Below are positions 9,263-59,818 of a DNA stretch of 64,000 nucleotides, piece by piece; the stretch's first letter is position 1, and each line of letters begins with the position of its first letter. The stretch covers positions 1 to 64,000 of the forward strand of contig DATGFS010000031.1 of NCBI GenBank assembly GCA_035308905.1. The letters run 5' to 3'. The stretch is from a bacterium. Lineage in GTDB: Bacteria > Sysuimicrobiota > Sysuimicrobiia > Sysuimicrobiales > Segetimicrobiaceae. The position numbers and the translations under genes were made by a program. The notes beneath the pieces were generated by a model that worked only from the letters and a program-made list of their open reading frames with translations, was not told where the DNA came from and did no database searches.

Positions 9263-9283
9263 CGGCGTTCGACCGGCGGGCGG

Positions 9284-11088: not shown

Positions 11089-11127
11089 CGTCAAGACAGG
11101 TATCGCGACAAGGAGGGACGTGACACG

Positions 11128-12543: not shown

Positions 12544-12544
12544 A

Positions 12545-14329: not shown

Positions 14330-14363
14330 GTCCGTAGCCTCCCCATCATGTTTCCAGCCTCCT

Positions 14364-15215: not shown

Positions 15216-16128
15216 ACGTAATTCTCGGGTTGGCGAGCGCGTAGGCGAGGTCCATCAACAAATTTACGATCAGAAAGGAAATCGCGAACAGCAGCAGACT
15301 CGCCTGGACGGCGGGATAGTCCCGCGCCAGGATCGCGTCGACGATGTGCCGGCCGAGGCCCGGCCACGCGAACACGGTTTCCGTCGCCACGGCGCCGCCG
15401 AGCGCGTAGCCGAAGCTCAGGCTTGTGATCGTGATGACCGGGATGAGCGCGTTGCGCAGCGCGTGCCGCAGCACCACGGCGCGCTCGGAGGCGCCCTTCG
15501 CGCGGGCCGTCCGCACGTAGTCCGCGTGCATCACTTCCGCGACGCCGGCCCGCGTGATGCGCGCGATGACGCCGAGCGAGAACGATCCGAGCGTGATCGT
15601 CGGCAGCACGAGCGCCTGCCAGGAACCGGCGCCGCCGGCGGGCAGCAGGTCGAGCTTGAGCGCGAACACGATGATGAGCAGGAGGCCGAGCCAGAAGGTG
15701 GGCACGGACACGCCGAGCAGCGCCAGCACCATCACGAGCGCGCTCACGGGCGACCGGGACCGCGCCCCCGCGAGCACCCCGAGCCCGATGCCGGCCAGCC
15801 CGGCGAACACCACGCTCGCCGCCGCGAGCTCGACGGTGTGCTGAAACGACGGCCACGCATCGGCCAGCGCGGAGCGGCCCGTCTTGAACGACGTCCCCAT
15901 GCTGCCGCGCAGGAGACGGCCGAGAAACGCCGCGTACTGCCGGCCGAGCGGCTGGTCGAGGCCGAGCTGATGGCGGAGCGCCGCGACCTCCTGCTGCGTG
16001 GCCGACGGGTCGAGCATCAACTGTGCGGGATCGCCGGGGATCAGGTGCAGCATGAGAAACACCAGCGTCACCACGACCAGCACCACGGGGGCCATGTGCA
16101 GGAGACGGCGGACGACGTAGGCTCCCAA
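15208..16128 (-). CDS. Peptide-type ABC transporter permease, DppB-like (importer 2)
   Basis: 306-aa DppB-like permease: N-terminal VVRRLLHMAPVVLVVVTLVF, HLIPGDPAQLM, EAA loop YVRTARAKGAS, and an ANPRITYG tail. The start codon is TTG 16128 with AGGGA about 9 nt upstream. The gene lies 11 nt downstream of the LLM oxidoreductase, so the two probably share a transcript. Its partner binding protein is probably the divergent gene at 17365. Confidence 0.9.
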   Translation of the reverse strand: MGAYVVRRLLHMAPVVLVVVTLVFLMLHLIPGDPAQLMLDPSATQQEVAALRHQLGLDQPLGRQYAAFLGRLLRGSMGTSFKTGRSALADAWPSFQHTVELAAASVVFAGLAGIGLGVLAGARSRSPVSALVMVLALLGVSVPTFWLGLLLIIVFALKLDLLPAGGAGSWQALVLPTITLGSFSLGVIARITRAGVAEVMHADYVRTARAKGASERAVVLRHALRNALIPVITITSLSFGYALGGAVATETVFAWPGLGRHIVDAILARDYPAVQASLLLFAISFLIVNLLMDLAYALANPRITYG

Positions 16129-20664: not shown

Positions 20665-22188
20665 ATGAGGGCCTTGCTGGACAAGCTCCACCTCAGCGAC
20701 GTGAACCCCGGTGCGTGCACCGGCCCGGACGGCTGGCTCAACGACCCCCGCGGCAAGGCGCTCGTCTCGTACAACCCGGCCACCGGCGAACCGATCGCCC
20801 AGGTGATCCAGGCCACCGCGGCAACCTACGACGCGGTCGTGCAGTCCGCGGGCGAAACCTTCCGCACCTGGCGCGCGACGCCCGCCCCGGTGCGGGGACA
20901 GATCGTCCGCGACCTCGGCAACGCGCTGCGCGAGGCCAAGGAACCGCTCGGCGAATTGGTGTCGCTCGAGACGGGCAAGATCAAGGTCGAAGGCATGGGC
21001 GAGGTCCAGGAGATGATCGATATCTGCGACTTCGCCGCCGGGCTGTCGCGACAGCTCTACGGGGTGACCACCCAGTCGGAACGCGCCGGGCACCGGATGT
21101 ACGAGCAGTGGCACCCGCTCGGCGTCGTCGGCATCATCACCGCCTTCAACTTCCCGTGCGCGGTGTGGTCGTGGAACTCGGCGATCGCCGCGGCGTGCGG
21201 CGACACCATGGTCTGGAAGCCCGCCTCAGCCGTTCCCCTGACCGCCCTCGCGGTCCAGCAGATCACGAACCGGGTCTCCGCCGACCACGGCGTGCGCGGG
21301 GTGTTCAACGTCGTCGTCGGCAGCGGCGAAGACGTCGGCGAGCGCATGCTCAACGACGCCCGCCTCCCCCTGATCTCGTTTACCGGCTCGGTGAAGATGG
21401 GCCGGCACGCCGCGGAGACCGTGGCCGGGCGCCTCGGACGCACGATCCTGGAACTGGGCGGCAACAACGGCATCATTGTGACCGAGGACGCCGATCTCGA
21501 CCTGGCGGTGCGGGCCATCGTCTTCGGCGCGGTCGGCACCGCGGGCCAGCGGTGCACGTCCACCCGCCGCATCATCATGCAGCGCGGCATCGCCCCCGCC
21601 CTCACGCGCCGGCTGATCAAGGCGTACGAACAGGTGACGATCGGCAATCCGCTCGAGGATGGGATCCTGATGGGGCCGCTGGTGAACGAAGCGGCCGTCG
21701 ACGCCATGATGGCGGCCCTCGACACGGTCAAGGCCCAGGGCGGGGACGTGCTGTTCGGCGGCACTCGCCTGCCGGAGAAGGGCCGCTGCTTCGCCGCCCC
21801 CACGCTCGTGCGGATGCCGCGGCAGACGCCCATCGTACTCGAAGAGACGTTCGCGCCGATTCTCTACCTCATCGAGTACGAGACGCTCGACGAGGCGATC
21901 GCCCTGCACAACGAGGTGCCGCAGGGACTGTCGAGCGCGATCTTCTCCACGAACCTCCTGACGGTCGAGCGGTTCCTCTCGACCGTGGGCTCGGACTGCG
22001 GGATGGCCAACGTCAACGTGGGGACCAGCGGGGCGGAGATCGGCCTCGGGTTCGGCGGCGAGAAGGAGACGGGCGGCGGCCGCGAGGCGGGGTCGGACGC
22101 CTGGAAAGGCTACATGCGGCGGCAGTCCAACGTGATCAACTGGTCGCGGGAGCTGCCGCTGGCGCAAGGCATCAAGTTCGGGGAGTAA
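20665..22188 (+). CDS. ALDH7-family aldehyde dehydrogenase (aminoadipate semialdehyde dehydrogenase-like)
   Basis: NAD-dependent aldehyde dehydrogenase of 507 aa. GQRCTSTRR holds the nucleophile Cys297 and ELGGNN the general base Glu263. The AFNFPCAVWSWNSAIAAACGD segment and the GSDAWKGYMRRQSN C-terminus match the antiquitin/ALDH7 group, which oxidises 2-aminoadipate 6-semialdehyde (piperideine-6-carboxylate) in lysine breakdown. ATG 20665 follows GAGGAGG. It is a lone plus-strand gene between minus-strand operons; its last 17 nt overlap the opposing ThDP enzyme gene. The lysine-pathway role is plausible, but other lysine genes are not seen here. Confidence 0.92.
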   Translation: MRALLDKLHLSDVNPGACTGPDGWLNDPRGKALVSYNPATGEPIAQVIQATAATYDAVVQSAGETFRTWRATPAPVRGQIVRDLGNALREAKEPLGELVSLETGKIKVEGMGEVQEMIDICDFAAGLSRQLYGVTTQSERAGHRMYEQWHPLGVVGIITAFNFPCAVWSWNSAIAAACGDTMVWKPASAVPLTALAVQQITNRVSADHGVRGVFNVVVGSGEDVGERMLNDARLPLISFTGSVKMGRHAAETVAGRLGRTILELGGNNGIIVTEDADLDLAVRAIVFGAVGTAGQRCTSTRRIIMQRGIAPALTRRLIKAYEQVTIGNPLEDGILMGPLVNEAAVDAMMAALDTVKAQGGDVLFGGTRLPEKGRCFAAPTLVRMPRQTPIVLEETFAPILYLIEYETLDEAIALHNEVPQGLSSAIFSTNLLTVERFLSTVGSDCGMANVNVGTSGAEIGLGFGGEKETGGGREAGSDAWKGYMRRQSNVINWSRELPLAQGIKFGE

Positions 22189-23887
22189 GGCCCTCCTCCG
22201 TCCATTCCTTGTTCGGGAAGTTCTTGAACCCGACGTAGTAGTCGAACGTGTCGACGGCAAACTCGACCACCGCCGGCGTGCCGGCGCGATTGGCGTCCAG
22301 CGCCCGCCGCAGCGCCGGCGTGATCTCCTCGGGCCGCTCGACGTGCTCGGCGGCGCAGCCGTGCGCCCGCGCGAGCGCCGGGATGTCGGGCGCCGCGGTG
22401 AAGTCCGTGGCGATGTAGCGCCGTCCGTGCAGCTCCTGGTGCCACTTCGGCCAGCCGAGGCTGCGCGTGTTGAGCACGATCCACGTCACCGGCGCCTTGT
22501 ACTGCACCGCGGTCGAGAGCTCTTGGGGCATCATGAACAGCGCCCCGTCGCCGGCGACGCAGACGACCTTCTTCCCGGGCCGCGCCAGCTTGGCGCCGAT
22601 CGCGCCGGTGATGCCGGCGCCCATGCACGTCTGCTCGCCCATCGCCACGTGGTCGCCGGCGTCGAGCACCCGGTAGTAGGGGTGGAAGTAGCTCCACAAG
22701 TCCTGGCCGCCGTTCTCGTTGATGAGGATCGTATCGCGCCCGAAGACCGCGTTCAGCTCGTGCACGATGCGCTTCGACTTGAGCGGGATCGAGCTCGCCG
22801 CCGCGCACTCCGCGTCGACCTCGCGCGCGAAGGCGTCTTTGTCGCGCACGCGCTCGTCGGCGTGCGCCTTACGGCTCCGGCGCGCCCCGGGAGACTCCGC
22901 CAGCGCCCCGCGCAGCTGCCGGAGGACCACCGACGCGTCGCCGATCACCGCCGCGTCGGGCACCCAGTTGCGGCCGATCTCGAACGGGTCGATGTCGATC
23001 TGCAGAAAACGGGCGCGGTCGGGGAAGATCTTCCAATCGCCGGACTGGAAGCCTTCCATGCGGGACCCGACGGTGATCAACAGATCCGCGCCGTTGAACA
23101 CGTCCCTGCCGGGACGGGTCCGGTAGAGTCCGACGAGGCCGAACGCGAGCGGATGTTCCTCGGAAATCGAGCCGCGGCCTGAGAACGTGGTCATCACCGG
23201 GAGATGCTCCTGCTCCGCCAGCGCCAGGAGGCCGGCGCCCGCGGCCGAGAGCACGACCCCGCCGCCCGCCACGAGCACCGGACGCTCCGCGGCGGCGATC
23301 ATCTCGGCCGCCCGCGTCAAGGCCTCCGGGTCCGCGGCGCAGCGAAGCGGCCTGGGCGACGGCCGGTAGGGTTCCATCTCGACCGACGCGGTGCCGACGT
23401 CGGACGGGATCTCCACGAACACCGGCCCGGGCTTGCCGGTGCCCGCCACCGAGAACGCGCGCCGCATCGTCCACGGAATCCGGTCCGCACGCTCGACCCG
23501 CACGTTCCACTTGGTGATCGGCCGGGCGATGCCGACCGCGTCGTTCTCTTGAAACGCCCCCATGCCGGTCAACCGGCTCGGGGCGCCGGTCGCGATGAAG
23601 ATGACCGGGGCGCACGCCGAGTAGGCCTCGAGCATCCCGGAGACGAGATTGGTCATGCCGGGCCCGGGGCTGCCGTGCGCGACCGTGACGCGGTTCGTCA
23701 GGCGTGCCTCGGCCATCGCCATGAACGCGCCGGAGCCTTCGTGCCGAACCAGAATCGGCGCGATCTCAGGCGCGTCGTAGAGCGCGTCGTACAGGTGGGT
23801 GGGATCGCCGGGCAGTCCGTACACGCGCCGGACGCCCTCCGACCGAAGCGCTTCCACGACGGCCTGCCACCCGGTCATCTTTGGCAT
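22172..23887 (-). CDS. Thiamine diphosphate-dependent enzyme (acetolactate synthase-like)
   Basis: 571-aa ThDP enzyme with the three usual domains: an N-terminal Pyr domain with catalytic Glu50 (RHEGSGAFMA), a central domain (ERPVLVAGGGV), and a PP domain with GDGALFMMPQELSTAV. The second part of the ThDP/Mg motif reads VLNTRSLG where many relatives have NN. The family includes acetolactate synthase, glyoxylate carboligase and benzoylformate decarboxylase; the exact reaction is open, though a decarboxylase or carboligase on a 2-oxo acid is likely. ATG 23887 follows GGAGGG. Last gene of the ten-gene operon starting with importer 3. Confidence 0.87.
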   Translation of the reverse strand: MPKMTGWQAVVEALRSEGVRRVYGLPGDPTHLYDALYDAPEIAPILVRHEGSGAFMAMAEARLTNRVTVAHGSPGPGMTNLVSGMLEAYSACAPVIFIATGAPSRLTGMGAFQENDAVGIARPITKWNVRVERADRIPWTMRRAFSVAGTGKPGPVFVEIPSDVGTASVEMEPYRPSPRPLRCAADPEALTRAAEMIAAAERPVLVAGGGVVLSAAGAGLLALAEQEHLPVMTTFSGRGSISEEHPLAFGLVGLYRTRPGRDVFNGADLLITVGSRMEGFQSGDWKIFPDRARFLQIDIDPFEIGRNWVPDAAVIGDASVVLRQLRGALAESPGARRSRKAHADERVRDKDAFAREVDAECAAASSIPLKSKRIVHELNAVFGRDTILINENGGQDLWSYFHPYYRVLDAGDHVAMGEQTCMGAGITGAIGAKLARPGKKVVCVAGDGALFMMPQELSTAVQYKAPVTWIVLNTRSLGWPKWHQELHGRRYIATDFTAAPDIPALARAHGCAAEHVERPEEITPALRRALDANRAGTPAVVEFAVDTFDYYVGFKNFPNKEWTEEGLTPRT

Positions 23888-23924
23888 GTCCGGTCCCTCC
23901 CGCCGGCGGACCCGGCCGCCGATT

Positions 23925-24326
23925 CTACCTGTCCTGCGTCTCCAGCGTCTCCGCGAATTGAACGAGCACGCCGTGCCCGCTCTTCGGGTGAACGAAGAGC
24001 TCCCGCCACGCCGGGTTGTCGTAGTTTTCGCCCACCACGCGGTATCCGGCGGCGCGCAGCTTCGCCGCCCACGCGCGCAGCCCCGTGACCTTGAACGTGA
24101 TGTGGTGCAGACCCTCGCCGTGGTCGCGCAGGAACCGCAGGAGAAAACTGTCGTCCCCCTTCGGCTCCAGCAGCTCGACAACGCCGCCCGGCAGCACATA
24201 CTGCTGGAACGTGAACCTGTTCCCGGCTCCGCTCTCGCCGGGAGTGGCGCCGAGAAGATCCTGTAAGAACGGCTCCGCGTCCAGGATGCGGCGAACCGCT
24301 ATGGCCACGTGATCGAAAACCACCAT
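23925..24326 (-). CDS. VOC-family (glyoxalase-fold) protein, methylmalonyl-CoA epimerase-like
   Basis: 133-aa vicinal-oxygen-chelate protein with two beta-alpha-beta-beta-beta modules. FDHVAIAV with His6, VVELLEP, GLHHITFKV and FVHPKSGHGVLVQF match methylmalonyl-CoA epimerase-type proteins. The position usually occupied by the final metal ligand Glu (in IEL or VEL) is Gln here. ATG 24326 has GAGGTG 6 nt upstream; the in-frame GTG 24335 is an alternative. It lies between the ornithine cyclodeaminase-family and ThDP genes in the same operon. Confidence 0.8.
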   Translation of the reverse strand: MVVFDHVAIAVRRILDAEPFLQDLLGATPGESGAGNRFTFQQYVLPGGVVELLEPKGDDSFLLRFLRDHGEGLHHITFKVTGLRAWAAKLRAAGYRVVGENYDNPAWRELFVHPKSGHGVLVQFAETLETQDR

Positions 24327-24387
24327 TACGGGCACCTCGCGATCGGGACGGATGCGACGAAGATCGTCGGCGCTTTCCGGAGACGGC

Positions 24388-25377
24388 TCACAGGGTAAGG
24401 GGCGTGCCGCGGCCGAGCGTTCTCGCGCGTTCGTAGACGGCGGCGGCCATCGCGATGTCGCACGCGGCGATGCCCAGATTGAGCACCAGGATCCGCTCGC
24501 GCTCGCTCGCGCGGCCCGCCGCGCGCCCGAGCAGCACCTCGCCGATCTCCGCGGCGAACGAGGGCACGCCCGACGGAAACCGGCCGATCACCTCGGGCGT
24601 GCCGAAGGCGCGGCGGTCGTCGACCAGGACCCGGTCGACCGCATACAGGATGCCGGTCTCCTTGCCGCCGTTGTCGAGCACGACCGTCGTCACGCCGGGC
24701 TTGAGCCACGCAATCTCGAGCAGCGGGGTGGTCGTGTTGGTGGTCACGGTCACGACGACGTCGGCCTCCCGCACCGCCTCTTCGCGGTTCGCCGTCGGGA
24801 CGAGCGCCGGCACGACGCGCGGCGCCATCACGGCGCAGAGCCGCTCCGCGGCCGGCGTCTCGCGGCCGACGACCCAAATCCTGGCAAGCGACGGCAGCAC
24901 GCGCGGCAGCACCTCGAGGTGGGCCCGCGCCTCCACGCCCGCCCCCACCACGGCCGCGACCGCCGTCCCGGACCTCGCGCAGGCTTCGAGCGAGACTCCG
25001 GTCATCGCGGACGTGCGCGCGGCGGTCACCACGGTCCCGTCCATCACGGCGATCGGCATCCCGGTCGGCGGGTCGTTGAGCACAATCAACGCCGGGATCG
25101 TCGGAAGACCGAGGGCCTTGTTCTTCGGATAGTCGCCGAGCCACTTGATCCCGAGACCGCGATTCTCGGGAAGGAGCGCCGGCATCGCGTGCGCGTGGCG
25201 CGCGCCCGGCGGGTGGACGCCGAACTTGGGCGGCATCTCGACCAGACCTTGCGCGTGCCAGACGAGCGCTTCCTTGATGCAGGCGAGGCGCTCCTCGACC
25301 GCAGGCAACGCCGCCGTCACATCGTCGCGGGATAGCCAAAGGACCGGGGCGGCACGACCGCCGGCCCCGTCAGCCAT
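24388..25377 (-). CDS. Ornithine cyclodeaminase/mu-crystallin family protein
   Basis: 329-aa NAD(P)-dependent imine-forming or imine-reducing enzyme. Seen: PPKFGVHPPGARHAHAMPA, GIKWLGDYPKNKALGLP (substrate region), TAARTSAMTG and a Rossmann segment AVVGAGVEARAH. Known family members are ornithine cyclodeaminase, ketimine reductase and the iminosuccinate reductase BhcD. ATG 25377 or GTG 25380 may be the start. It lies 20 nt after the first MmgE/PrpD gene and precedes the VOC gene, so it is part of the importer 3 operon and probably acts on an amino or imino acid. Confidence 0.88.
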   Translation of the reverse strand: MADGAGGRAAPVLWLSRDDVTAALPAVEERLACIKEALVWHAQGLVEMPPKFGVHPPGARHAHAMPALLPENRGLGIKWLGDYPKNKALGLPTIPALIVLNDPPTGMPIAVMDGTVVTAARTSAMTGVSLEACARSGTAVAAVVGAGVEARAHLEVLPRVLPSLARIWVVGRETPAAERLCAVMAPRVVPALVPTANREEAVREADVVVTVTTNTTTPLLEIAWLKPGVTTVVLDNGGKETGILYAVDRVLVDDRRAFGTPEVIGRFPSGVPSFAAEIGEVLLGRAAGRASERERILVLNLGIAACDIAMAAAVYERARTLGRGTPLTL

Positions 25378-25397
25378 CACACGTCAACCGTTACGCC

Positions 25398-26765
25398 TCA
25401 TCCATCGCGACGGAGCAGGCGCGCGAGGTCGGCGACGTCGGCGACCTCTTCGAACCTGCCGACCATCTCACCGATCTCGCCGCGGCGCCGCGCGCTGATC
25501 ACGTCCTCGGTGAGGCGCGCGAACTTGCGGTGCACCTCGTCGCGCGGCAGCGGCCGCTCGGGCGCGCCCTTAGGGTGGGATACGTCGCGGCTGTAGCGGC
25601 CGCGGGATGTCTCGACCTCGACGATCGAACGATACAGATCAGGATACGTCCGGTCGAGCTCTTTGTCGCCGACCACGTCGACCCGCTCGGACAGCGCCCG
25701 AATCCCCGGGTCCGTCCGGCGGTCGTGCAGGATATCTTCGAAATCGACGACCCCCTTGTGCGCGGCGAGCGCCAGCACGTACTGCGCGCAGTGGGATCGC
25801 AGCGGGTTTCCGTCGATCACGTGGTAGCCGCCGGCGGGATAGCGCAGCGTGATGTGGCGGATGTCCGCGGCGCGCACGCCCTCCGTCTGTTGTATGTCGA
25901 GCAGCCCATCGAGACCCGGATGGATGAACGCGCAGCAGGCGTACTGCTTGATCGCGATCTCCATCACCTTGAACGTCGTGCCCAGCCCGTCGAAGAGCGC
26001 CGCCTCGTCCCACCGGCCGGTGAACGCGTGCCCGAGCGGATACTTGCCTTCGAAAATCGCCGGCGGGCCCCCGAACCCGCACGAGGCGAGGTGCGCGGCG
26101 GACACCCCGTGGTGGGACGCCAGGCCCATGTTGAACGGACGGGAGTGTTCGGTGTCGTCGCTCACCCAGGCGAGGAGCCCCGAGGTCTCCGTGCCGGCGA
26201 GCCCGAACGCGTGGCGCAGCGGCGGCCCTTCGAGGCCGTACAGGCGCGCCGCGGCGGCCAGCGACCCGAACGTTCCGGCGACGCAGGTCGGGTGGAACCC
26301 GCGCGCGTACAGCGCCGCGCCGCCGAGCGCGTAGCTGACCCGGCAGGCGCTCTCGATCCCGACGACGATCGCCGCCAGCACGTCCTTGCCCGAGCGGTGC
26401 ATGCGCTCGCCCACGGCGAGCGCCGCCGGTCCGACGACCGCGATCGCGTGCATGATCGCGCCGGCGTGGTGGCTCTCGATGTCGCAGTAGTAGCCGAACG
26501 TGCCGTTGACGAGCGCCGCGGTGGCGCAGTTGGTGCGGAGATCGGTGCCGAAGACCTGGGCCTCCGGCGTCCCCCCCGTCTCCTGCACGAAGCGCCGCAG
26601 CACCGCGCCGATGTCGTAGCGCGGGGACGTCGCGGACAGGAGCGCGCCGAGGCCGTCGTAGAGGATCTCCTTGGTGCGGTCCACGACGTCCGCCGGGATG
26701 CGCTCGTACGGGAACGTCTCGACGAACCGGGCGAAGCGGTCGGTCATGCCGGCGGCTGCGCTCAT
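25398..26765 (-). CDS. MmgE/PrpD-family protein (copy C of three)
   Basis: 455-aa member of the family that includes 2-methylcitrate dehydratase PrpD, cis-aconitate decarboxylase and iminodisuccinate epimerase. Family signs: FGYYCDIESHHAGAIMHAIA, the FHPTCVAGTFGSLAAAARL segment, IKQYACCAFIHPGLDGLL and GNPLRSHCAQYVLALA. ATG 26765 overlaps the stop of the next PrpD gene as ATGA. Third in order of transcription in a block of three PrpD-family genes. It and copy B share the C-terminal KSHCAQY/RSHCAQY pattern, so these two look closest to each other. Confidence 0.9.
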   Translation of the reverse strand: MSAAAGMTDRFARFVETFPYERIPADVVDRTKEILYDGLGALLSATSPRYDIGAVLRRFVQETGGTPEAQVFGTDLRTNCATAALVNGTFGYYCDIESHHAGAIMHAIAVVGPAALAVGERMHRSGKDVLAAIVVGIESACRVSYALGGAALYARGFHPTCVAGTFGSLAAAARLYGLEGPPLRHAFGLAGTETSGLLAWVSDDTEHSRPFNMGLASHHGVSAAHLASCGFGGPPAIFEGKYPLGHAFTGRWDEAALFDGLGTTFKVMEIAIKQYACCAFIHPGLDGLLDIQQTEGVRAADIRHITLRYPAGGYHVIDGNPLRSHCAQYVLALAAHKGVVDFEDILHDRRTDPGIRALSERVDVVGDKELDRTYPDLYRSIVEVETSRGRYSRDVSHPKGAPERPLPRDEVHRKFARLTEDVISARRRGEIGEMVGRFEEVADVADLARLLRRDG

Positions 26766-28144
26766 CGCGCGTGGACCTGTAAGAGGGCCGCGATCTCGCC
26801 GACGTCCGCGACGCGGTCGAGACGGTACACCAGCTCCATCAGGCGCGTCGCGTTGCTCCGGGAGATGCGGGTCGTCGCGAGATCCATGAACTTCTGCTCC
26901 AGCTCGGCCTTCGTCATCGGGTTCTGGCGGCGGCCCTTGGCCTCGTCCACGCGCGCCGTGAGCGTCCGCCCGTCCCGCGTCGTGACCTCGACGACCGCGG
27001 GCGCGTGCGCCGGCCACGCGTCCATGGCGGCGTCGCCCACGAGGCGCACCCGTTTGGACAGCGACTTGATCCGGGGATCGGCACGGCGGTCCTCCAGAAT
27101 GTCGGCCGATTCGATCTTCCCGCGGACGGCCGCCACCGCCATGATGTACTGCGCGCAGTGGGACTTCAACGGATTGTCGTCGATCACGGGCGCGCGGTCC
27201 GCCTTGACCCGGTGGACGACCGCGGCGACGTCGTCCGCGGTGATCCGGTGCTCGTCGAGGATCGCAAGCAGCGCGTCCACGCCCGTATGGATGTCCCCGC
27301 AGCAGGGATGCCGCTTGTACCCGTAGTGCTGGGTGATCCACAGCGTCTCGCCGAGCCCCTCGGTCAGCCGGTCGAGATGCATCTCGCCCGCGTACGCGTC
27401 GTAGATGCTGTACTTGCCGCCGTCGAGGATCGCCGGCGGCCCGCCGAATCCCATCTGCGCGAGCAGCGCCGCGGTGACCCCGCCGCGCGCCGCCATCCCG
27501 ATGACCAGCGGACGCGAGTTCTCGGTCGGATCGTCCACCCAGGTCATCAGGCCCGAGGCGTTGCTGCCGGCGATGCCGAGGGCGTTCGCGAACTTCGGCC
27601 GGTCGAGGCGCAAGAGATGCCCCGCGACGGCCGCGGCGCCGAAGTAGCCGAAGACCGCGGAGGGATGGAACGAATGCGGGTACGAGTGCGCGGTCCGGCA
27701 CGCTTCACCCGCGCGGCTCGCGATCTCGTAGCCCACCGCGAGCGCCGCGAGGAACGCCTTGCCGTCCGACCGCTCGCGCTCCCCGACGGCGAGCGCCACC
27801 GGGACGAGGACGGCCGGCACGTGCTGCCTCGAGACGCTCGCCCCCTCGATGTCGGCGGCGTAGCCCATGGTCCCGTTCGCGAGCGCCGCGCTTTCGCACG
27901 ACGTCTTGAAGTCGCGGCCGATCACCGTGCACTCGGGCATGCCGCCGGCGCGCCGCCCGAGCTCGCCGGTGAGCCACGACGCGGTGTACTGCGGCGCCGA
28001 TCCCAGCAGCAGCGCCCCGAGCGTATCGAGCACGACCGTCTTCGCCTCCGCGACCGCGGCGGCGGGAAGATCGGCGAACGTGAACTGCGTGGCGTATGCG
28101 GTCAGCACCGCGGTGGGCCCGTGCTGCGGATCCTGCGTCGGCAT
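26762..28144 (-). CDS. MmgE/PrpD-family protein (copy B of three)
   Basis: 460-aa MmgE/PrpD protein. Key segments: MGYAADIEGASVSRQH, SFHPSAVFGYFGAAAVAGHLL, HYGYKRHPCCGDIHTGVD and DNPLKSHCAQYIMAVA. ATG 28144 has GAGGAG 8 nt upstream, and the stop overlaps the copy C start. The likely reaction is dehydration or epimerisation of a polycarboxylate or imino-dicarboxylate. It differs from copy C in the cysteine-rich active-site loop (PCCGDIH against CCAFIHP), so the two may have different substrates or form a hetero-oligomer. Confidence 0.9.
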   Translation of the reverse strand: MPTQDPQHGPTAVLTAYATQFTFADLPAAAVAEAKTVVLDTLGALLLGSAPQYTASWLTGELGRRAGGMPECTVIGRDFKTSCESAALANGTMGYAADIEGASVSRQHVPAVLVPVALAVGERERSDGKAFLAALAVGYEIASRAGEACRTAHSYPHSFHPSAVFGYFGAAAVAGHLLRLDRPKFANALGIAGSNASGLMTWVDDPTENSRPLVIGMAARGGVTAALLAQMGFGGPPAILDGGKYSIYDAYAGEMHLDRLTEGLGETLWITQHYGYKRHPCCGDIHTGVDALLAILDEHRITADDVAAVVHRVKADRAPVIDDNPLKSHCAQYIMAVAAVRGKIESADILEDRRADPRIKSLSKRVRLVGDAAMDAWPAHAPAVVEVTTRDGRTLTARVDEAKGRRQNPMTKAELEQKFMDLATTRISRSNATRLMELVYRLDRVADVGEIAALLQVHAR

Positions 28145-28168
28145 CTGCCGGCTCCTCTCAGTGTTCGT

Positions 28169-29530
28169 TCAGCGCCCGGCCGCCAGGCACCGCGCCAGCG
28201 CGGCGCAGTCGTCCAGCGAGTCGAGTCCGGCGACGAGCGTCTCGATCTCGTCGAGCCGCCCGTCCGGCACGACCCCGCGCGACAGCGTGCGGAACTTCGC
28301 CTTCAGATCGGCGGCGCTGAGCGCGTTTTCCGGATCGCCCGTCGGATAGTAGACCGTTTCCGTGAACTCGCGGCCGTCGTTCGTCCGGACCGTCGTGATC
28401 CCGGACCACTGCTCGGGGAACCGCTGCTCCAGCTCGTCGCTGCCGCTGACCCGGACGCGCGCGGACAGCGCGGCGATGCGCGGATCCTCCAGGCGGCGGC
28501 CGTCGAGCTGGTCGACCGCCACCCGCCCGTCGTACGCCGCGACGGCGAGTACGTACTGCGCATTATGCGACGGCAGCTCGTTGTTGTCGATGATGTCCGC
28601 CATCGACGTCGCGACCCGCGTGTGGACCTCGGCGATGTCGTCCGCGGCCACGCCGTGCTCGCGCATGATCGTGAACAGGCCGTCGAGGGGCGCGTGAATC
28701 TGCCGGCACGCCGCGTATTTCTTCAGGCTCGTGCGCATGAGCTCGAACCGCTCCCCGAGCCCGTCGGTCAGTACGGCGGCCTGATCGTCCTCGAGACCGC
28801 TGAAGGCGCGGAACAGGTTGTGCTTGCCTTCGAGGATGTGCGGCGGCCCGGTGAATCCCAGGTGGGCAAGTTGGGCCGCCGTCACTCCGTTCCGAGAGGC
28901 GATCCCGATCTGGAACGCCTTGCTGAGCTGCGACGCTTCGGTCACCCAGGCGAGCAGGCCCGACGCCTGGCACCCCGCCAGCCCGAACGCGTCCACCATC
29001 GCCGCGGGCTGAAGGCGCAGCATGCGGCCGGCCGCGGCCGCGGCCCCGAAGTTGCCGTCGATCGACGACGGGTGAAACGACCGGGCGTACAGGCGGACGG
29101 GATCGAGCGCGATCCCCACCCGGCCCTCCACGTCGTAGGCGGCGACGAGTGATGCGATCAACTCGCGCCCGCCCGCGTGGTCCGCCTCGCCGATCGCGAG
29201 CGCGGCGGGCAGCACGACGTTGGCCACGTGGGCGTTGGCCGGATTGTAGTTGTCGTCCTGTTCGAGACAGTGCGACATCGTCGCGTTCGCAAACGCGGCC
29301 GCGACGGGCGAGACGCGCAGCGCCGAGCCGGCGACCGTGCACGGGCCGGACTCGCCGAGCCCTTCCGTGTAGCGCGTGACGAGCCGGCCGGCCGGGTACC
29401 GCGCGCCGCCGAGCAGGGTGCCGAGCGTGTCCAGGACCAGATCCTTCACCCGCGCCACGACGCCCGCCGGCAGGTCCTCGTAGCGGAGCCCGCCCGCGTA
29501 TGCCGCGAGCCGTTCGGTCACGCCGGTCAT
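28169..29530 (-). CDS. MmgE/PrpD-family protein (copy A of three)
   Basis: 453-aa MmgE/PrpD protein, the first of the three to be transcribed. Family signs: SHCLEQDDNYNPANAHVAN, SFHPSSIDGNFGAAAAAGRML, LKKYAACRQIHAPLDGL and NNELPSHNAQYVLAVA. ATG 29530 follows GGGGGAGG. In the conserved C-terminal motif it has SHNAQY where copies B and C have SHCAQY, so it is the outlier. It follows the M20 peptidase gene by 44 nt. Confidence 0.9.
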   Translation of the reverse strand: MTGVTERLAAYAGGLRYEDLPAGVVARVKDLVLDTLGTLLGGARYPAGRLVTRYTEGLGESGPCTVAGSALRVSPVAAAFANATMSHCLEQDDNYNPANAHVANVVLPAALAIGEADHAGGRELIASLVAAYDVEGRVGIALDPVRLYARSFHPSSIDGNFGAAAAAGRMLRLQPAAMVDAFGLAGCQASGLLAWVTEASQLSKAFQIGIASRNGVTAAQLAHLGFTGPPHILEGKHNLFRAFSGLEDDQAAVLTDGLGERFELMRTSLKKYAACRQIHAPLDGLFTIMREHGVAADDIAEVHTRVATSMADIIDNNELPSHNAQYVLAVAAYDGRVAVDQLDGRRLEDPRIAALSARVRVSGSDELEQRFPEQWSGITTVRTNDGREFTETVYYPTGDPENALSAADLKAKFRTLSRGVVPDGRLDEIETLVAGLDSLDDCAALARCLAAGR

Positions 29531-29574: not shown

Positions 29575-30927
29575 TTAGATCGCGCCGGCCAGCTCGCCGA
29601 TGAGGCGCGCCGTGAACTCGACGCCCGCGCAGTAGTCGTCGACTTTGATGCCCTCGTCGGGCGCGTGAAACTGCGACTCGGCCGAGCCCATGCCGGCGTT
29701 GATGAGCGGAATCCCGAGCGGGTCCGCGAGCTCGTGGTACGGCGCCCCGATCCAGGGCGCCACCGGGTAGATCGCCGGCGACGTCCGGTAGAAGTCCCGG
29801 CCGGTCCGGATGATCGCCGCGACCATCGGATGCTCGAGCGGCACCTTGCCCGGATACCGCTCGCTCAGCGGGCGCAGCGTGATGCCGGTGAACCCGTGGG
29901 CGTCGAGGTGCCGTCTTAAGATCCCCTCCATCTTGGCCGGATCCTGGTTGGGGACGAGCCCGAAGCGCACCACACCGACCGCGCGCCGCGGCATGCCCCT
30001 GCTGCCGTCGAAGGTGCGCCCCGCGCCGAGCCCTGAAACTTCGAGCGTCGGCTCGAACAAAAGACGCCGGATCGCGTCGCGGTCGCGCACGTCGAGCGTC
30101 AGTTTCGAGAGTCCGAGGCGCCGCTTGAGCCCCTCGTCGTCGAAGCGCAGGTCGTCCAGCAGTTTCACCTCCGCCTCCGACGGCCGGACGGCGTCGTCGT
30201 AGAACCCGGCGATCGTCACCCGCTCGTCGGGCCCTTTCATGCTCGTGAACGCCCACACGATCTCCCAGGCCGGATTCGGCACCACGGACGTCAGGCTGCT
30301 GTGAAAGGTCTGCCGCGCGCCGGTGCGCTCCATCTCGAAGAGGATGCGGCCCCGGCAGCCGAGGCTGATCGTCGGCCGGCCCAGATCGTCCCGGCCGCCG
30401 CCCTCGCCGAGCGCCCCGTCCGCGCGCAGCAGGTCACGGTTCGCCAGCACCAGCTCGCGCAGGTGCGGGCTGCCGAGCTCTTCCTCGCCGTCGATCACGA
30501 ACTTGATCGTGAGCGGCGGGGTCCCGTGCACCGCCCGCCAGGCGTCGACGGCGCACAACCGCGCGGCCAGCTCGCCCTTGTTGTCGCTCGCGCCCCGCGC
30601 GACGAGGCGCCCGTCGACGATCTCCGCGGCGAACGGCGGCGACGTCCAGGCGTCGAGCGGCTCCGCCGGCACGACGTCGTAGTGGTTGTAGAGGAGCAGC
30701 GTTCTCGCCGACGCGCCGGGGATGGTGCCGACGATCAGGGGCGGCGCGCCCGCGGTCTCGCGCAGGACGACGTCCGCGCCGAGGCCGCGCAGCAGCCCGG
30801 TCAGGAACCCCACCGCCTCCGGCACGGCCTGGTTGGAGACGCTCGGGATGCGGCAGAAGGTCCGCAGCGTCTCCACGTAGCGGTCCCGGTGACCCTCGAC
30901 GTACTCGTGCAGCGCGTTCGCCGTCAC
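29575..30927 (-). CDS. M20-family dipeptidase/deacylase (ArgE/DapE/CPG2 group)
   Basis: 450-aa zinc hydrolase. LLYNHYDVVP (His/Asp), GASDNKGELAA (bridging Asp), DGEEELGS (catalytic and ligand Glu) and FHAPDEGI (last His) are all in order, so the active site looks complete. It cleaves dipeptides or N-acyl amino acids in the cytoplasm. GTG 30927 overlaps the importer 3 dppC-like stop as GTGA, with GAGG 9 nt upstream. Its position between importer 3 and the PrpD block suggests it opens the imported conjugate and feeds the following enzymes. Confidence 0.92.
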   Translation of the reverse strand: MTANALHEYVEGHRDRYVETLRTFCRIPSVSNQAVPEAVGFLTGLLRGLGADVVLRETAGAPPLIVGTIPGASARTLLLYNHYDVVPAEPLDAWTSPPFAAEIVDGRLVARGASDNKGELAARLCAVDAWRAVHGTPPLTIKFVIDGEEELGSPHLRELVLANRDLLRADGALGEGGGRDDLGRPTISLGCRGRILFEMERTGARQTFHSSLTSVVPNPAWEIVWAFTSMKGPDERVTIAGFYDDAVRPSEAEVKLLDDLRFDDEGLKRRLGLSKLTLDVRDRDAIRRLLFEPTLEVSGLGAGRTFDGSRGMPRRAVGVVRFGLVPNQDPAKMEGILRRHLDAHGFTGITLRPLSERYPGKVPLEHPMVAAIIRTGRDFYRTSPAIYPVAPWIGAPYHELADPLGIPLINAGMGSAESQFHAPDEGIKVDDYCAGVEFTARLIGELAGAI

Positions 30928-31835
30928 AGCCGCAGCCTCGGATCCAGCGCGTCGTGCAGCCCGTCCCCGAACAGGTTGACCGCGAGCACCGTCAGCGCGA
31001 TCGCCACGCCGGGGAACGTGCTGATCCACCATGCGTTCTGGAGATAGTCGCGTCCCTGGGCCAAGATCAGACCCCACTCGGGGGTGGGGGGCTGCGCGCC
31101 CATGCCGAGGAAGCTCAGCGTCGCCGCGGTGAGAATGGCCACGCCGACGTTGAGCGTGCCGAGGATCAGCGCCGGCCCGTAGATGTTCGGCAGGATGTGC
31201 CGCACCGCCACCCGCGCCTCGCTGCACCCGCCGGCCCGCGCCGCCTCCACGTACACGTTCTCGCGCGCGGAGATGACGCAGCCGCGCACGAACCGCGTGA
31301 ACCGGGGCACGCTCGCGATGCCCACCGCCAACACGACGTTCGACAGCGCCGAGCCGAGCGCCGCGGCGATGGCGAGCGCGAACAGGAGCGTCGGCACCGC
31401 CAGCATGACGTCGACGGCACGCATGATGACCGTGTCAATCCATCCGCCGCGGTAGCCGCTCAGCAGCCCGAACACCACCCCGGCCGTCAACGTCAAGGCA
31501 CTCGCCGCGAGCCCCGCGACCAGCGAGATGCGCGACCCTGCCAGCACCCGGCTGAACACATCGCGGCCGATCTCATCCGTCCCCATCCAGTGCCGCGGCC
31601 CGGGCGGTGAGAAGATGTCTTCCGGCGACGGCCGCGTCGGCGGATACGGGCTCACGAGCGGCGAGAGGAGCGCCGCGCCCACCATCACGCCGAGCAGCAC
31701 CGCCCCGAGCGCGGCCTTCCGGTTGCGCCAGAACCGCCGTGCGACCTCCGCGGTGCGGGACTCGGACGTCGCGGGCGGGCGCGGCGGCGCGGGCACCGGC
31801 TCGGGGATCGCGTGTGCCGCGAGGACCTCAGCCAT
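30924..31835 (-). CDS. Peptide-type ABC transporter permease, DppC-like (importer 3)
   Basis: 303-aa DppC-like permease with a proline-rich cytoplasmic N-terminus (PEPVPAPPRPPAT). MGTDEIGRDVFSRVLAGSR, the EAA loop VYVEAARAGGC, FLGMGAQPPTPEWG and ALDPRLRL are seen. ATG 31835 lies 8 nt inside the dppB-like gene and the stop overlaps the M20 gene start. No ATPase gene follows. Confidence 0.92.
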   Translation of the reverse strand: MAEVLAAHAIPEPVPAPPRPPATSESRTAEVARRFWRNRKAALGAVLLGVMVGAALLSPLVSPYPPTRPSPEDIFSPPGPRHWMGTDEIGRDVFSRVLAGSRISLVAGLAASALTLTAGVVFGLLSGYRGGWIDTVIMRAVDVMLAVPTLLFALAIAAALGSALSNVVLAVGIASVPRFTRFVRGCVISARENVYVEAARAGGCSEARVAVRHILPNIYGPALILGTLNVGVAILTAATLSFLGMGAQPPTPEWGLILAQGRDYLQNAWWISTFPGVAIALTVLAVNLFGDGLHDALDPRLRL

Positions 31836-32760
31836 AGGCCCCGGCGTCCCGGATCCGCGGATCGAGGTAGCAGTAGGAGACGTCGACCAGCATATTGGCG
31901 AGGACGTAGCCGCAGGCCGCGACCAGGAGCGTCGACTGCAGCGCGGGGTAATCGCGGTAGGTGATCGACTCCACGATCAGCCGGCCGAGCCCGGGACGCG
32001 CGAACACCGTCTCCACGACGACGGTCCCGGACAGCAGGTTGCCGAGCTCGACGCCGACGATCGTCACCACGGGGATGAGCGAGTTCCGCAGCGCGTGCTT
32101 CAAGACGACCGACCGGGGCGGCAGGCCCTTGGCCCGCGCCGTCACGACATACTCCTGATGCAGCGTCTGCACGAGGCTGGAGCGCGCGAGCCGGCTGATG
32201 ACGCCGGTGCTATAGAGGCCGAGCGTGACCGCCGGCATCACGAGCTGCTGCCACCCCGATCCGGTCGTCACCGGCAGCCAGCCGAGCCAGAGCGAGAACA
32301 CGAAGATCAGCATGAGCCCGAGCCAGAAGCTCGGAATGGACACCCCGGACAGCGCGGCGATCGTGCTCACATTGTCGACCCAGCCGTGCGGCCGCAGCGC
32401 GGCCAGCGTGCCGAGCGCGACCCCGAGGGCGACGGCGATGCCGAGCCCCACCAGCGCGAGCTCGAGCGTCGGCGGCAGAAACTGGCCGATCAGGCGGCTC
32501 ACCGGCTCGCCGTAGCGGATGGAGCGGCCGAGGCGGCCGCGCGCGAGCGACCCGAGTTCGTCCGTGTACTGGCGCCAGAGCGGCCGGTCGAGGCCGTATT
32601 CGTGCCGCAGCGATTCCAATTGCGACTTCGACGCGCTGCCCTCGGAGATCAAGAGCGCCGGGTCGGACGGCAGCACGTGCAGCACGACGAACACGAGCGT
32701 GTAGACGCCGAGCAGCGCCGGCAGCGTCGTCAGCACGCGCCGGCCGATGAATTTCAACAC
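31828..32760 (-). CDS. Peptide-type ABC transporter permease, DppB-like (importer 3)
   Basis: 310-aa DppB-like permease: IGRRVLTTLPALLGVYTLVF, HVLPSDPALL, EAA loop YVVTARAKGLPP and a YLDPRIRDAG end. It starts with GTG 32760, 59 nt after the binding-protein stop. The usual GDPA of this family is SDPA here. Confidence 0.91.
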   Translation of the reverse strand: MLKFIGRRVLTTLPALLGVYTLVFVVLHVLPSDPALLISEGSASKSQLESLRHEYGLDRPLWRQYTDELGSLARGRLGRSIRYGEPVSRLIGQFLPPTLELALVGLGIAVALGVALGTLAALRPHGWVDNVSTIAALSGVSIPSFWLGLMLIFVFSLWLGWLPVTTGSGWQQLVMPAVTLGLYSTGVISRLARSSLVQTLHQEYVVTARAKGLPPRSVVLKHALRNSLIPVVTIVGVELGNLLSGTVVVETVFARPGLGRLIVESITYRDYPALQSTLLVAACGYVLANMLVDVSYCYLDPRIRDAGAYG

Positions 32761-32819
32761 GGCGGCGGTCTACGGACGCGGCGCCCGTGCCCGGGCGTCA
32801 CACCTTCGCCTCGCGCCGC

Positions 32820-34484
32820 CTACGACTGGATCCACGCATCCTGGAAGTACGGATACCAGGACCGCGCGTCCATGTGGAAGTTCTTGACGTTCGCGTCCGT
32901 CACCCAGACGAACAGCGTGATGTAGATCGGGACGACATACCCCTGCTCGAGGATACGCCGGGTCGCGCGCGAGACGAGCGCCTGGCGCGCCTTCCGGTCG
33001 ACCGTCAGGTCCTGCTCCGCGAGGACCTGATCGAGTTCGGGGTCCTTGTTCATCGACCAGGCGAAGCTGCCCACGTTCTTCGAGGCGAAGAGGTCGACGA
33101 GGTAGTGCGGGTCGCTGGCCTCGAACTCGCGGTTGACCAGGTGGTAAAGACCCTTGCTGCCGGCCACGGTGCGATCCGCGGGTGTGCCCGCGATCAGCTT
33201 GGTCGAGAAACCGACGTCCTGCAGCATCGTCAGCATGAGCTGCTTGTAGTTCTCCGTCATGAACCCGCTCGTGAACACGTCGAGATGCAGCGGAGTGCCG
33301 TCCTTCACGCGGACGCCGTTCGGGCCCCGCTTCCAGCCGGCCTCTTCGAGCAGCTGTCTCGCCTTCCCCGGATTGAACGCGTACAGATGGTCGAGCGCCG
33401 GATCGTAGCCGAAGCTCGTCGGACCGATGAGGTTCCACGTCGGCCGCGCGAACCCGGGGTAGAAGACTTTGACGATGGTGTCCTTGCTGACCGCGTAGTT
33501 GATCGCCTGCCGCACCGCCAATTCGTTCGTCGGCGGCTTCTGTGTGTTGATGAAATTGAACCACGTGGTGCCCGGCGACACCCCTTCGTACATCGCGAAC
33601 GCCGAGTCGCGCCGCCAGTCCCGCAGGCGCAGCGGCCCCGGCCAGGCCTCGACGCGCAGCTCCTTGCGGCCGTTCATGAGCGCATCCCGCGTGCCCTGCT
33701 CCGGCACGAACTTGAACGTCAGGCGGTCGAGGTACGGCGGCCCCGCGTTGGTCTTGCCGGGGAACGTCGTGCCCCACTTGTAGTTCGGGTTCCGCGCCAG
33801 CGTGATATGCGTGTCGCGCTGCCACTCCACGAACGTAAAGGGCCCCGTCCCGACCAGGTGGTTTTGAAAGTCCTGGCCGTACTTCTTCACCGCGGCGGGC
33901 GACGGAATGCCGAGGTACCCCTGGCTCAGCGAGTCGAAGATCGGCGCAAAGGGCTCCTTGAGGCGCAGCTGCACGGTGTGGTCGTCGATCACGACCGTCG
34001 AGTCGTAGGGCCCCAGCAGCGAGCGCGCGTACTGCGACTTCGTGGCCGGATCGACGCAGCGGTCGAAATGGAACTTGACCGCCTCGGCGTTGAAATCGGT
34101 CCCGTCGTGGAACTTGACGCCCTGCCGCAGCTTGAACGTCAGCTGTGTGCCGTCCTTGGAGGCGGTCCACGAGGTGGCCAGACCCGGATAGATGCTGAGG
34201 TCGTTGCCCAGATAGACGAGCGAGTCGAACACCATCTGGGTCACCATCGTCTCGGGCGGCCCCCAGTAGACGGCCGGATCGAGCTTGTCGAGCGTGCGGT
34301 ACATGCCGATGGTCAGCTCGCCGCCCGGGTGAGGCGGAGCCGCCGCGGCGGCCGCCGCATTCGGGCGCAGCAGCCGGCCGGGACCTCCGAGCGCCGAGAG
34401 CGGAAGCGCCGATCCGGCGCCGGCCGCGAGCAGTTTCACGAACTTGCGGCGGGACAGTGAATGCGCGCTGGTGCGTTTGCCCAT
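32820..34484 (-). CDS. Peptide-type ABC transporter substrate-binding protein (importer 3)
   Basis: 554-aa family 5 binding protein with a textbook twin-arginine signal, SLSRRKFVKLLAAGAGSA, near residues 9-26. TFKLRQGVKFHDGTDFNAEAVK, NHLVGTGPFTFVEW and VRQAINYAVSKD are family motifs. ATG 34484 heads the ten-gene minus-strand run that ends at the ThDP enzyme. It is divergent from the DNA glycosylase gene across about 130 nt of less GC-rich DNA that should hold both promoters. Confidence 0.92.
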   Translation of the reverse strand: MGKRTSAHSLSRRKFVKLLAAGAGSALPLSALGGPGRLLRPNAAAAAAAPPHPGGELTIGMYRTLDKLDPAVYWGPPETMVTQMVFDSLVYLGNDLSIYPGLATSWTASKDGTQLTFKLRQGVKFHDGTDFNAEAVKFHFDRCVDPATKSQYARSLLGPYDSTVVIDDHTVQLRLKEPFAPIFDSLSQGYLGIPSPAAVKKYGQDFQNHLVGTGPFTFVEWQRDTHITLARNPNYKWGTTFPGKTNAGPPYLDRLTFKFVPEQGTRDALMNGRKELRVEAWPGPLRLRDWRRDSAFAMYEGVSPGTTWFNFINTQKPPTNELAVRQAINYAVSKDTIVKVFYPGFARPTWNLIGPTSFGYDPALDHLYAFNPGKARQLLEEAGWKRGPNGVRVKDGTPLHLDVFTSGFMTENYKQLMLTMLQDVGFSTKLIAGTPADRTVAGSKGLYHLVNREFEASDPHYLVDLFASKNVGSFAWSMNKDPELDQVLAEQDLTVDRKARQALVSRATRRILEQGYVVPIYITLFVWVTDANVKNFHMDARSWYPYFQDAWIQS

Positions 34485-39138: not shown

Positions 39139-40785
39139 CTAGGACTTGAAGCGGACATCGTACCACTCGGGATAGTAATGGTAGACGTCGTACCGCACGC
39201 CGGTCAGCGACGCCTTCGCGCCGTCGACCGCGATCAGATTGTAGAGCGGCAGCGTCGCGGCCTGGTCCATGATCGTCATCTGTACCTTCTGGTAGAGCGG
39301 CAGCCGCTGCTTCGGGTCCACGAGCGCCCGGCCGTCGTCGAGCATCCGGTCCACCGCGGCGTTTCGAAAGTGCCCCATGTTCCAGCCGCCGATGTTCTTC
39401 GAGTGGAACTGCACGGTGAGAATGTCCGGATCGATCCCGCGCCACTCCATGAACGTCATGTTGCTCTTGCCCTGGCGCGCGAGCTCCTCGGACGCCGGGA
39501 GCGCCATCGTCTGGATCTCGAGGTCGATCCCGACGGCCTGCAACATCCCCTGGATCGCCGTCAGCATCGAGACCGTAACCGGGTCCGACTTGACCGCGCA
39601 GACCATCTTGCAGGCCTGCCCGTTCTTCGCGCGGACGCCGCCGGCGCCGGCCTTCCAGCCGGCCTCCTCGAGGACCTGGCGCGCCTTCGGCGGATCATAC
39701 CGGTACATCTTCTCGACCTCGGCGTTGTAGCCCCACACGACGGGCTTGAGCGGACCGTACGCGACCGGCGAGATGCCGCCCGTGGCGATGCGGGTGACCA
39801 CTTCCTTGTTGACGGCGAACTGCATCGCCCGCGCCACGGCGACGTCGTCCGTGGGGAACTTGGACCGGTTGATCAGAAACATGACCGGCTCCCCGGCGTA
39901 CATGTTCTTGTACACCTGGAACCGGGGGTCGCTCTGCACGCTGTCAACGTTGATGCCCGGGACGCGATAGATGAAGTCCGCTTCGCCGCTGCGGAGCGCG
40001 TTGAGCCGCGTCGCGTCTTCCATGATGATTCGGAACGTGAGCGTGTCCAGGTACGGCGGGGTCTTGTGGGAGACGAGGTCGGACGTGTTCACGTACTTGT
40101 CGTTTCGGACGAGCGTGACGTGGTCGCCGCGCACCCACTCCTGGAGCCGGTACGGGCCGGTGCCGACGGGGTTCGACCCGAAGTCCGCGCCGTACTTCTT
40201 CACGGCCGTCGGCGACACGACGCCGAGGACGACGTCGTGCAGGTTGTTGAAAAACGGGGCGTACGGTTCCTTGAAGGTCATCTTGATCGTCCTGGAGTCG
40301 AGGACCTGGCTCGACTGGTAGGTGCCGATCTCAGACAGCCCGGTCTGGGACTTCGTCGCGGGATCCAGGATACGGTCGAAACTGAACTTGACCGCCTCGG
40401 CGTCGAACGGCGTTCCGTCGTGAAACGCGATGCCCGTGCGCAGCTTGAACGTCCACTCGCGTCCGTCCTTGGACACCTGCCAGTTGGTCGCCAGGCGCGG
40501 ATGCGCCCGTCCCTGCGTGTCGAGCTCGATGAGGGCTTCGATGACATTCTTGAGCACCACGATACCGGGGATGTAGGTCGCCGCCGCCGGGTCGAGACTG
40601 TTCGGCTCGAGGAACATGCACGCGGTCAGCTTTCCGCCTCGGTAGTCCGCCGCTCTGACGGGCAACGGCACGGCGCTCAACGCTCCGGCGCCGGCGGCCG
40701 CCAATCCGAACGCCGTGGCCCCGCGAATCGCCGCGCGCCGGGTCAACCGCCGACCGGTTCCTATCCTCGATGATGCATCGCTCAC
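39139..40785 (-). CDS. Peptide-type ABC transporter substrate-binding protein (importer 4)
   Basis: 548-aa family 5 binding protein with a twin-arginine-like signal (RRLTRRAAIRGATAFGLAAAG). EPNSLDPAAATYIPG, TFKLRTGIAFHDGTPFDAEAVKF, SNPVGTGPYRLQEW and VARAMQFAVNKE are family motifs. GTG 40785 lies 5 nt behind GGGGAGGGA; the upstream ATG 40809 has no ribosome site. Unlike importers 1, 3 and 5 it is transcribed after its permeases (dppB-dppC-dppA order). Confidence 0.91.
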   Translation of the reverse strand: MSDASSRIGTGRRLTRRAAIRGATAFGLAAAGAGALSAVPLPVRAADYRGGKLTACMFLEPNSLDPAAATYIPGIVVLKNVIEALIELDTQGRAHPRLATNWQVSKDGREWTFKLRTGIAFHDGTPFDAEAVKFSFDRILDPATKSQTGLSEIGTYQSSQVLDSRTIKMTFKEPYAPFFNNLHDVVLGVVSPTAVKKYGADFGSNPVGTGPYRLQEWVRGDHVTLVRNDKYVNTSDLVSHKTPPYLDTLTFRIIMEDATRLNALRSGEADFIYRVPGINVDSVQSDPRFQVYKNMYAGEPVMFLINRSKFPTDDVAVARAMQFAVNKEVVTRIATGGISPVAYGPLKPVVWGYNAEVEKMYRYDPPKARQVLEEAGWKAGAGGVRAKNGQACKMVCAVKSDPVTVSMLTAIQGMLQAVGIDLEIQTMALPASEELARQGKSNMTFMEWRGIDPDILTVQFHSKNIGGWNMGHFRNAAVDRMLDDGRALVDPKQRLPLYQKVQMTIMDQAATLPLYNLIAVDGAKASLTGVRYDVYHYYPEWYDVRFKS

Positions 40786-40802
40786 TCGAGTCCCTCCCCG
40801 TG

Positions 40803-40825
40803 GGGCCATCCCGGGCCCGTTTTTT
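40803..40825 (+). terminator. Terminator-like hairpin, antisense to the importer 4 operon
   Basis: GGGCC (40803-40807) and GGCCC (40814-40818) can pair around a 6-nt loop and are followed by G and six T residues on the plus strand. Both flanking genes are on the minus strand, so if real it would stop antisense transcription. The stem is only 5 bp. Confidence 0.25.
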
Positions 40826-40828
40826 GAC

Positions 40829-41725: not shown

Positions 41726-41732
41726 CGCGCGG

Positions 41733-58816: not shown

Positions 58817-58850
58817 GTCGGGAACCACCCGCGCGGCGTCGCCCCGGCCG

Positions 58851-59774: not shown

Positions 59775-59818
59775 GCGGGCCGGCTAGGCGGGCCGCGCGC
59801 GGGCCGCGGGCGCCGGGC

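Follow-up and report, generated by a model that had tools for sequence, protein, structure and literature searches.

Three genes of the MmgE/PrpD family lie in a row on the minus strand of the window, by which we mean the whole 64,000-nucleotide stretch (contig DATGFS010000031.1) that was analysed. The genome to which it belongs (G000; ~4.0 Mb, 81 contigs, 97% complete) contains only seven MmgE/PrpD genes recognised by PF03972, including these three, and with so small a total the arrangement is not a matter of chance. The three, here called A, B and C, are each an intact full-length ORF; 24 nt separate A from B, while B and C share 4 nt (ATGA), C starting before B has ended. They form part of a run of genes with short or overlapping gaps, which in the direction of reading comprises:

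32820..34304, minus strand: Dpp/Opp-type solute-binding protein (SBP); the true start is probably further upstream
31828..32760, minus strand: Dpp/Opp-type ABC permease (DppB-like), in conserved order
30924..31835, minus strand: Dpp/Opp-type ABC permease (DppC-like), overlapping the M20 gene by 4 nt, in conserved order
29575..30927, minus strand: M20-family dipeptidase/amidohydrolase (PF01546), with metal-site motifs HYD and EE recognised by eye
28169..29530, minus strand: MmgE/PrpD protein A, 453 aa, with the active-site set H-E-H-Y-H-K-K, as in methylsuccinate isomerase
26762..28144, minus strand: MmgE/PrpD protein B, 460 aa, B subfamily, a His85 to Tyr and Lys198 to Arg variant
25398..26765, minus strand: MmgE/PrpD protein C, 455 aa, C subfamily, a His85 to Tyr and Lys198 to Arg variant
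24388..25380, minus strand: OCD/mu-crystallin-family (PF02423) imino-acid reductase or amino-acid dehydrogenase, partner of C
23925..24335, minus strand: VOC protein, weakly linked and missing from the sister-species locus
22172..23893, minus strand: ThDP enzyme (acetolactate-synthase-like), weakly linked

The SBP and permeases were named from their similarity to other transporter genes of the window rather than by a family search. Sets of Dpp/Opp-type transporter genes occur in the window at 7817-16095, 30924-34304, 39139-42662 and 57935-61414, and the presence of several within 64 kb suggests a genome rich in peptide and organic-acid uptake. Beyond the ThDP gene, and convergent with it (17 nt end overlap), lies an aldehyde dehydrogenase gene (20665-22188, plus strand) which scores above the NCBIfam cut-off for L-piperidine-6-carboxylate dehydrogenase.

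Conservation was assessed in 43 genomes of the phylum (G000 and 42 others). Four genomes from three genera (G000, G023, G026, G033) keep the order SBP-permease-permease-M20-A-B, with identities of 63-93%, the M20 gene adjoining A in the last three also. In the sister species G023 (L038) the entire order A-B-C-OCD is found again, as in G000, at 74-88% identity. These two genomes are the only ones in which C directly follows B; in G033 it is located upstream of the SBP, and in G025, G026 and G032 it occupies a separate site beside a 2-hydroxyacid-dehydrogenase-like gene. Since the first order is conserved in four genomes and the placement of C is variable, the stable core consists of transporter-M20-A-B, and C, with or without OCD, makes up a second module. 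A preliminary description of this DNA had recognised the direct tandem, the 4 nt overlap of B and C and the M20 gene as an upstream operon partner; the ORFs lie at exactly the positions it gave, and across related genomes the M20 gene shows tight linkage to both A and B.

Family assignment and phylogeny

MmgE/PrpD proteins abound in genomes, and a frequent annotation for them is 2-methylcitrate dehydratase-like. A, B and C belong to this superfamily on the basis of their two-domain fold and of matches to PF03972 (183-220 bits) and PF19305 (112-131 bits), the Pfam cut-off being 32.1. With the NCBIfam models for PrpD (TIGR02330/NF006943; cut-offs 458-950) A and B gave 26-46 bits and C gave no match. 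No protein of the genome exceeded the cut-off for PrpD or PrpB, and the methylcitrate cycle was not found in it. When the PDB was searched with phmmer the first matches, at ~1e-30, were to iminodisuccinate (IDS) epimerase, cis-aconitate decarboxylase (CAD) and IRG1, with CAD giving the best score for A; PrpD was matched at 1e-5 to 1e-9 or not at all. Structures predicted with AlphaFold for A and C (pLDDT 95 in both cases) superimposed on IDS epimerase with TM values of 0.90 and 0.88, respectively; against full-length PrpD/MmgE chains the values were lower (0.73-0.84). With 2-methylcitrate dehydratase they share the superfamily and the overall fold.

In a maximum-likelihood tree (quick search with SH-aLRT support only, and some long branches) A, B and C group together (100), separately from PrpD, CAD, IDS epimerase, IRG1 and methylsuccinate isomerase, and inside this clade A is sister to B+C (99). 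Proteins from Chloroflexota and Poribacteria fall in the B clade (100), and the C clade (96) takes in Pseudomonadota, Chloroflexota, Methylomirabilota, Myxococcota-labelled Deltaproteobacteria, Bathyarchaeota and Nitrososphaerota, as well as Bacillota- and Acidobacteria-labelled MAGs. The identity of the three as 2-methylcitrate dehydratases is rejected by the sub-cut-off scores, the lack of PrpD and PrpB in the genome and the position in the tree: A, B and C are MmgE/PrpD proteins of the IDS epimerase type rather than the PrpD type. The outcome that had been named beforehand as fatal to the preliminary interpretation, all three being PrpD-type with methylcitrate genes elsewhere, did not occur.

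The copies had also been described as differing at the HCAQY/HNAQY motif and the cysteine-rich loop and as being of no recent origin, and both observations hold. The motifs are SHNAQY and AACRQIH in A, SHCAQY and PCCGDIH in B, and SHCAQY and ACCAFIH in C, and pairwise identity among the three is ~39-43%. Recent tandem duplication is ruled out by this low identity and by the reach of the B and C clades into other phyla; as judged from their sequences, the three are old, separate paralogous subfamilies. In 20 other genomes searched outside the window's family nothing exceeded ~42% identity to A, although the contig scan for relatives employed B and C motifs and so sampled A-type genes to a limited extent. 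C-type genes occur in many genomes which have neither A nor B.

Active-site residues

The catalytic residues of IDS epimerase are His85, Asp88, His99, Tyr145, His150, Lys198 and Lys266 (PMC12290011, PMC7347537), and the carboxylate-binding residues have been described as conserved throughout the family (PMC12290011). We aligned 120 proteins, 88 of the A, B and C types (13 B, 70 C) and 32 other members. In A these seven positions are filled by His, Glu, His, Tyr, His, Lys and Lys, the set found in methylsuccinate isomerase. The catalytic His99 is kept in all 88 A, B and C proteins and the Tyr145 equivalent, five residues before His150, in 87; this pair, expected of a two-base epimerase, is present in the A, B and C of the window. 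The carboxylate ligands His85 and Lys198 are found in A and are replaced by Tyr85 and Arg198 in every one of the 13 B and 70 C proteins (83/83), all of which retain His99, His150 and Lys266, with the tyrosine in 82. Of the 32 remaining proteins, 24 carry His at position 85 and not one carries Tyr there; 29 have Lys at position 198, the exceptions at 198 looking by eye like alignment slips. One of the two motifs by which B and C relatives were collected includes Tyr85, and Arg198 is in neither; Tyr85 was nevertheless present in 12/12 loci recovered solely through the motif lacking that residue. Since the substitutions remove two residues described as binding the dicarboxylate throughout the family, the substrate or the reaction of B and C may be different. 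In the same alignment CAD lacks the Tyr145 equivalent, and E. coli PrpD lacks the equivalents of both Tyr145 and His150, which A, B and C keep. Neither the Tyr145-less site of CAD nor a place in the CAD clade is found for any of the three.

Genomic partners

Downstream of C, the OCD gene has a counterpart in G023 (74% identical) and another beside the C orthologue of an Acidobacteria MAG (L058), where the order is ThDP-C-OCD and the C, OCD and ThDP proteins are 71%, 57% and 26% identical, respectively, to those of the window. Within the window's family it is confined to G000 and G023, that is, two species of one genus. BhcD, an iminosuccinate reductase, had been offered as its precedent; this identity is rejected, since the protein gives 77 bits with NF045643, whose cut-off is 500, and it lies nearer to archaeal alanine dehydrogenase and SbnB. 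The VOC and ThDP genes are both absent from the syntenic locus of G023, and a search of the 42 related genomes gave no close homologue of the ThDP enzyme (E <= 1e-120); their candidacy as conserved members of a pathway is accordingly dropped. Where other C-type genes have a ThDP enzyme nearby, it is only 26-37% identical to that of the window, and the association may therefore be generic. A VOC gene lies directly downstream of the B-type gene in four of eight loci (L107, L113 and L125 typed by Pfam, L128 by sequence).

Up to 10 kb of flank was inspected at 65 C-type loci. An aspartate-dehydrogenase-like (AspDH-like) gene (PF01958) is present in 37 of these and directly adjacent in 31; by a rough estimate, assuming 1-3 copies per genome, ~1% of flanks of this size around a random gene would include one. 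The one AspDH-like protein tested scored 244 bits, just under the NF009825 cut-off of 253. The large subunit of aconitase X (AcnX) was found in 25/65 loci and the swivel subunit in 22/65, mostly alongside AspDH. Genes for ThDP enzymes (24), TctA (18), Asp/Glu-racemase-like (15) and DadA-like (14) proteins were also encountered. The surroundings of a C-like gene in the window's family (G027) include an M81 peptidase on the upstream side and, two genes further downstream, an AspDH-like gene. With OCD beside C here and in L058, and AspDH-like enzymes elsewhere, the two look interchangeable, and the amino- or imino-acid dehydrogenase partner suggested by the preliminary description is borne out for C. 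The multi-step pathway proposed there is a composite, in which M20 belongs with A and B and the dehydrogenase with C, and from which VOC and ThDP fall away.

The window operon contains no AcnX. The C-associated AcnX scores far under the cut-off for the C3LHyp (hydroxyproline) dehydratase (249 bits, cut-off 700), and types IIc-IIf of AcnX have been left without an assigned function (PMC8184944). A conserved Paracoccaceae cluster (L101, L109, L112, L116, L121, L122, L124) consists of AcnX (both subunits or the large one alone), AspDH-like, C-type MmgE/PrpD, GntR, SDR and ThDP genes, with TctA/TctC nearby. No description of an AcnX, MmgE/PrpD and AspDH cluster was found in the open-access literature.

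Elsewhere in the genome two MmgE/PrpD genes adjoin a lyase of the ASL superfamily (L048:8708-11611 on contig C26 and L047:9618-12502 on C31), in both cases near a Dpp-type transporter. Among solved structures both lyases come closest to 6G3D-6G3I/6RX8, entries that bear the name argininosuccinate lyase and of which 6G3H is EDDS lyase (PMC12363623); the true ArgH is encoded at another site (C72, 589 bits). An additional ASL-superfamily paralogue (C24:45529-46800; 266 bits, ArgH cut-off 279.5) lies on a contig without an MmgE/PrpD gene. The tricarballylate-utilisation genes TcuA and TcuB, above their NCBIfam cut-offs, are located upstream of the MmgE/PrpD gene on C26 (L048:2505-5079). The combination of epimerase, C-N lyase and transporter at C26 and C31 is an IDS/EDDS-type layout, from which it follows that the organism probably handles N-substituted aspartates. 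The amino-polycarboxylate chemistry originally proposed for the trio gains support from these two loci, although they lie apart from it; for the trio itself it is a plausible idea.

Proposed function and its alternatives

Our preferred reading, in which we place moderate confidence, is that A, B and C are cofactor-free two-base epimerases or isomerases, on the IDS epimerase/methylsuccinate isomerase side of the family, with succinate-like substrates. At the carbon next to a carboxylate, the equivalents of His99 and Tyr145 would abstract a proton from one face and deliver it back to the opposite face, and the Lys266 equivalent would hold the enolate. What the Dpp-type ABC transporter imports would be a chiral amino-dicarboxylate in amide or peptide linkage; the amide would be hydrolysed by the M20 enzyme, and A and B would then set the stereocentres. 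C, with its altered carboxylate pocket, would supply the product to the dehydrogenase or reductase that acts on amino or imino acids (OCD here, AspDH-like elsewhere), giving an overall order of uptake, hydrolysis, epimerisation and reduction or deamination. We infer the reaction, the class of substrate and the order of steps from the genes, synteny, fold, residues and partner statistics; the trio probably prepares a chiral succinate-like nutrient for breakdown. Against this reading of the operon, the M20 and Dpp families are broad, the genome has many Dpp operons, and in some genomes C is found away from A and B.

Among known systems, IDS epimerase (PDB 2HP0/2HP3, Agrobacterium) resembles the trio in fold (TM 0.88-0.90) and in His99/Tyr145, His150 and Lys266, to which A adds His85 and Lys198. 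It differs in sequence (22-23% identity in the structural alignment), in having EEAKF where the trio has SH-x-AQY, and in the residues which are Tyr85 and Arg198 in B and C; moreover, unlike the textbook IDS pathway, the trio operon includes no C-N lyase of the fumarase/ASL type. B. subtilis IRG1 (PDB 7BRA), the top fold match, is only 20-24% identical, and YxeK/YxeL-type genes are lacking from the trio operon. We take 7BRA to be YxeQ of the S-(2-succino)cysteine operon. The yxe operon likewise brings together an ABC transporter, the deacetylase YxeP and YxeQ, to which no function is assigned (PMC9706529). For the (S)-(R)-methylsuccinate isomerase (PMC12290011) the same chemistry has been proposed, A has its identical H-E-H-Y-H-K-K set, and a VOC gene adjoins the P. 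aeruginosa isomerase gene (L056); it belongs to a separate clade, and no itaconate or methylsuccinate genes surround A, B and C.

That the trio might itself have such an isomerase activity, or a CAD-like decarboxylase activity, both known in the family, is suggested by A sharing all seven active-site residues with the P. aeruginosa enzyme and by CAD being the top-scoring sequence match of A. We regard this as highly improbable, because the operon, unlike L055 and L056, has no CoA transferase, citramalyl-CoA lyase or acyl-CoA dehydrogenase, the single clade of A, B and C (100) stands apart from both references, and CAD is without the Tyr145 equivalent. It is less improbable, but still unlikely, that one or more of the three act as dehydratases or isomerases of hydroxy-tricarboxylates or hydroxy-dicarboxylates, by PrpD-like chemistry in a citrate-like catabolic route. 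The superfamily is common, the SH-x-AQY motif is closer to PrpD and CAD than to IDS epimerase, and another paralogue of the genome sits with TcuA/TcuB at L048; however, nothing in the genome reaches the PrpD or PrpB cut-off, Tyr145 and His150 equivalents missing from E. coli PrpD are present in A, B and C, and the AspDH/OCD partners point to nitrogen-containing substrates.

The loss of His85 and Lys198, limited to B and C and fixed across many phyla, suggests an altered role, and A could be the working epimerase while B and C have been neofunctionalised (e.g. for C-N elimination or decarboxylation) or serve as non-catalytic partners in a mixed oligomer. Such a division of labour seems doubtful to us, given that the catalytic His99, His150 and Lys266 (and, with one exception, the tyrosine) persist in B and C, that the fold of C is intact at high model confidence, and that C does not need A and B, C-type genes being present in many genomes that lack both.

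More tentatively, the Tyr85/Arg198 clade of B and C may possibly be an undescribed MmgE/PrpD class, widespread in bacteria and archaea, acting on an amino- or hydroxyamino-dicarboxylate, in a hitherto undescribed catabolic pathway with AspDH-like or OCD enzymes and an uncharacterised AcnX, of which the trio would be a multi-stereocentre version.

Only four reactions are known for the MmgE/PrpD family (PMC12290011). The trio is a lineage-specific assembly of known folds, and the fixed change in the active site together with the repeated partners makes it more than a family curiosity. It delineates a sharp, testable MmgE/PrpD subclass, with an altered active site and recurrent AspDH-like/OCD and AcnX partners, and assays on this subclass could annotate many genes across phyla, as well as an uncharacterised type of AcnX.
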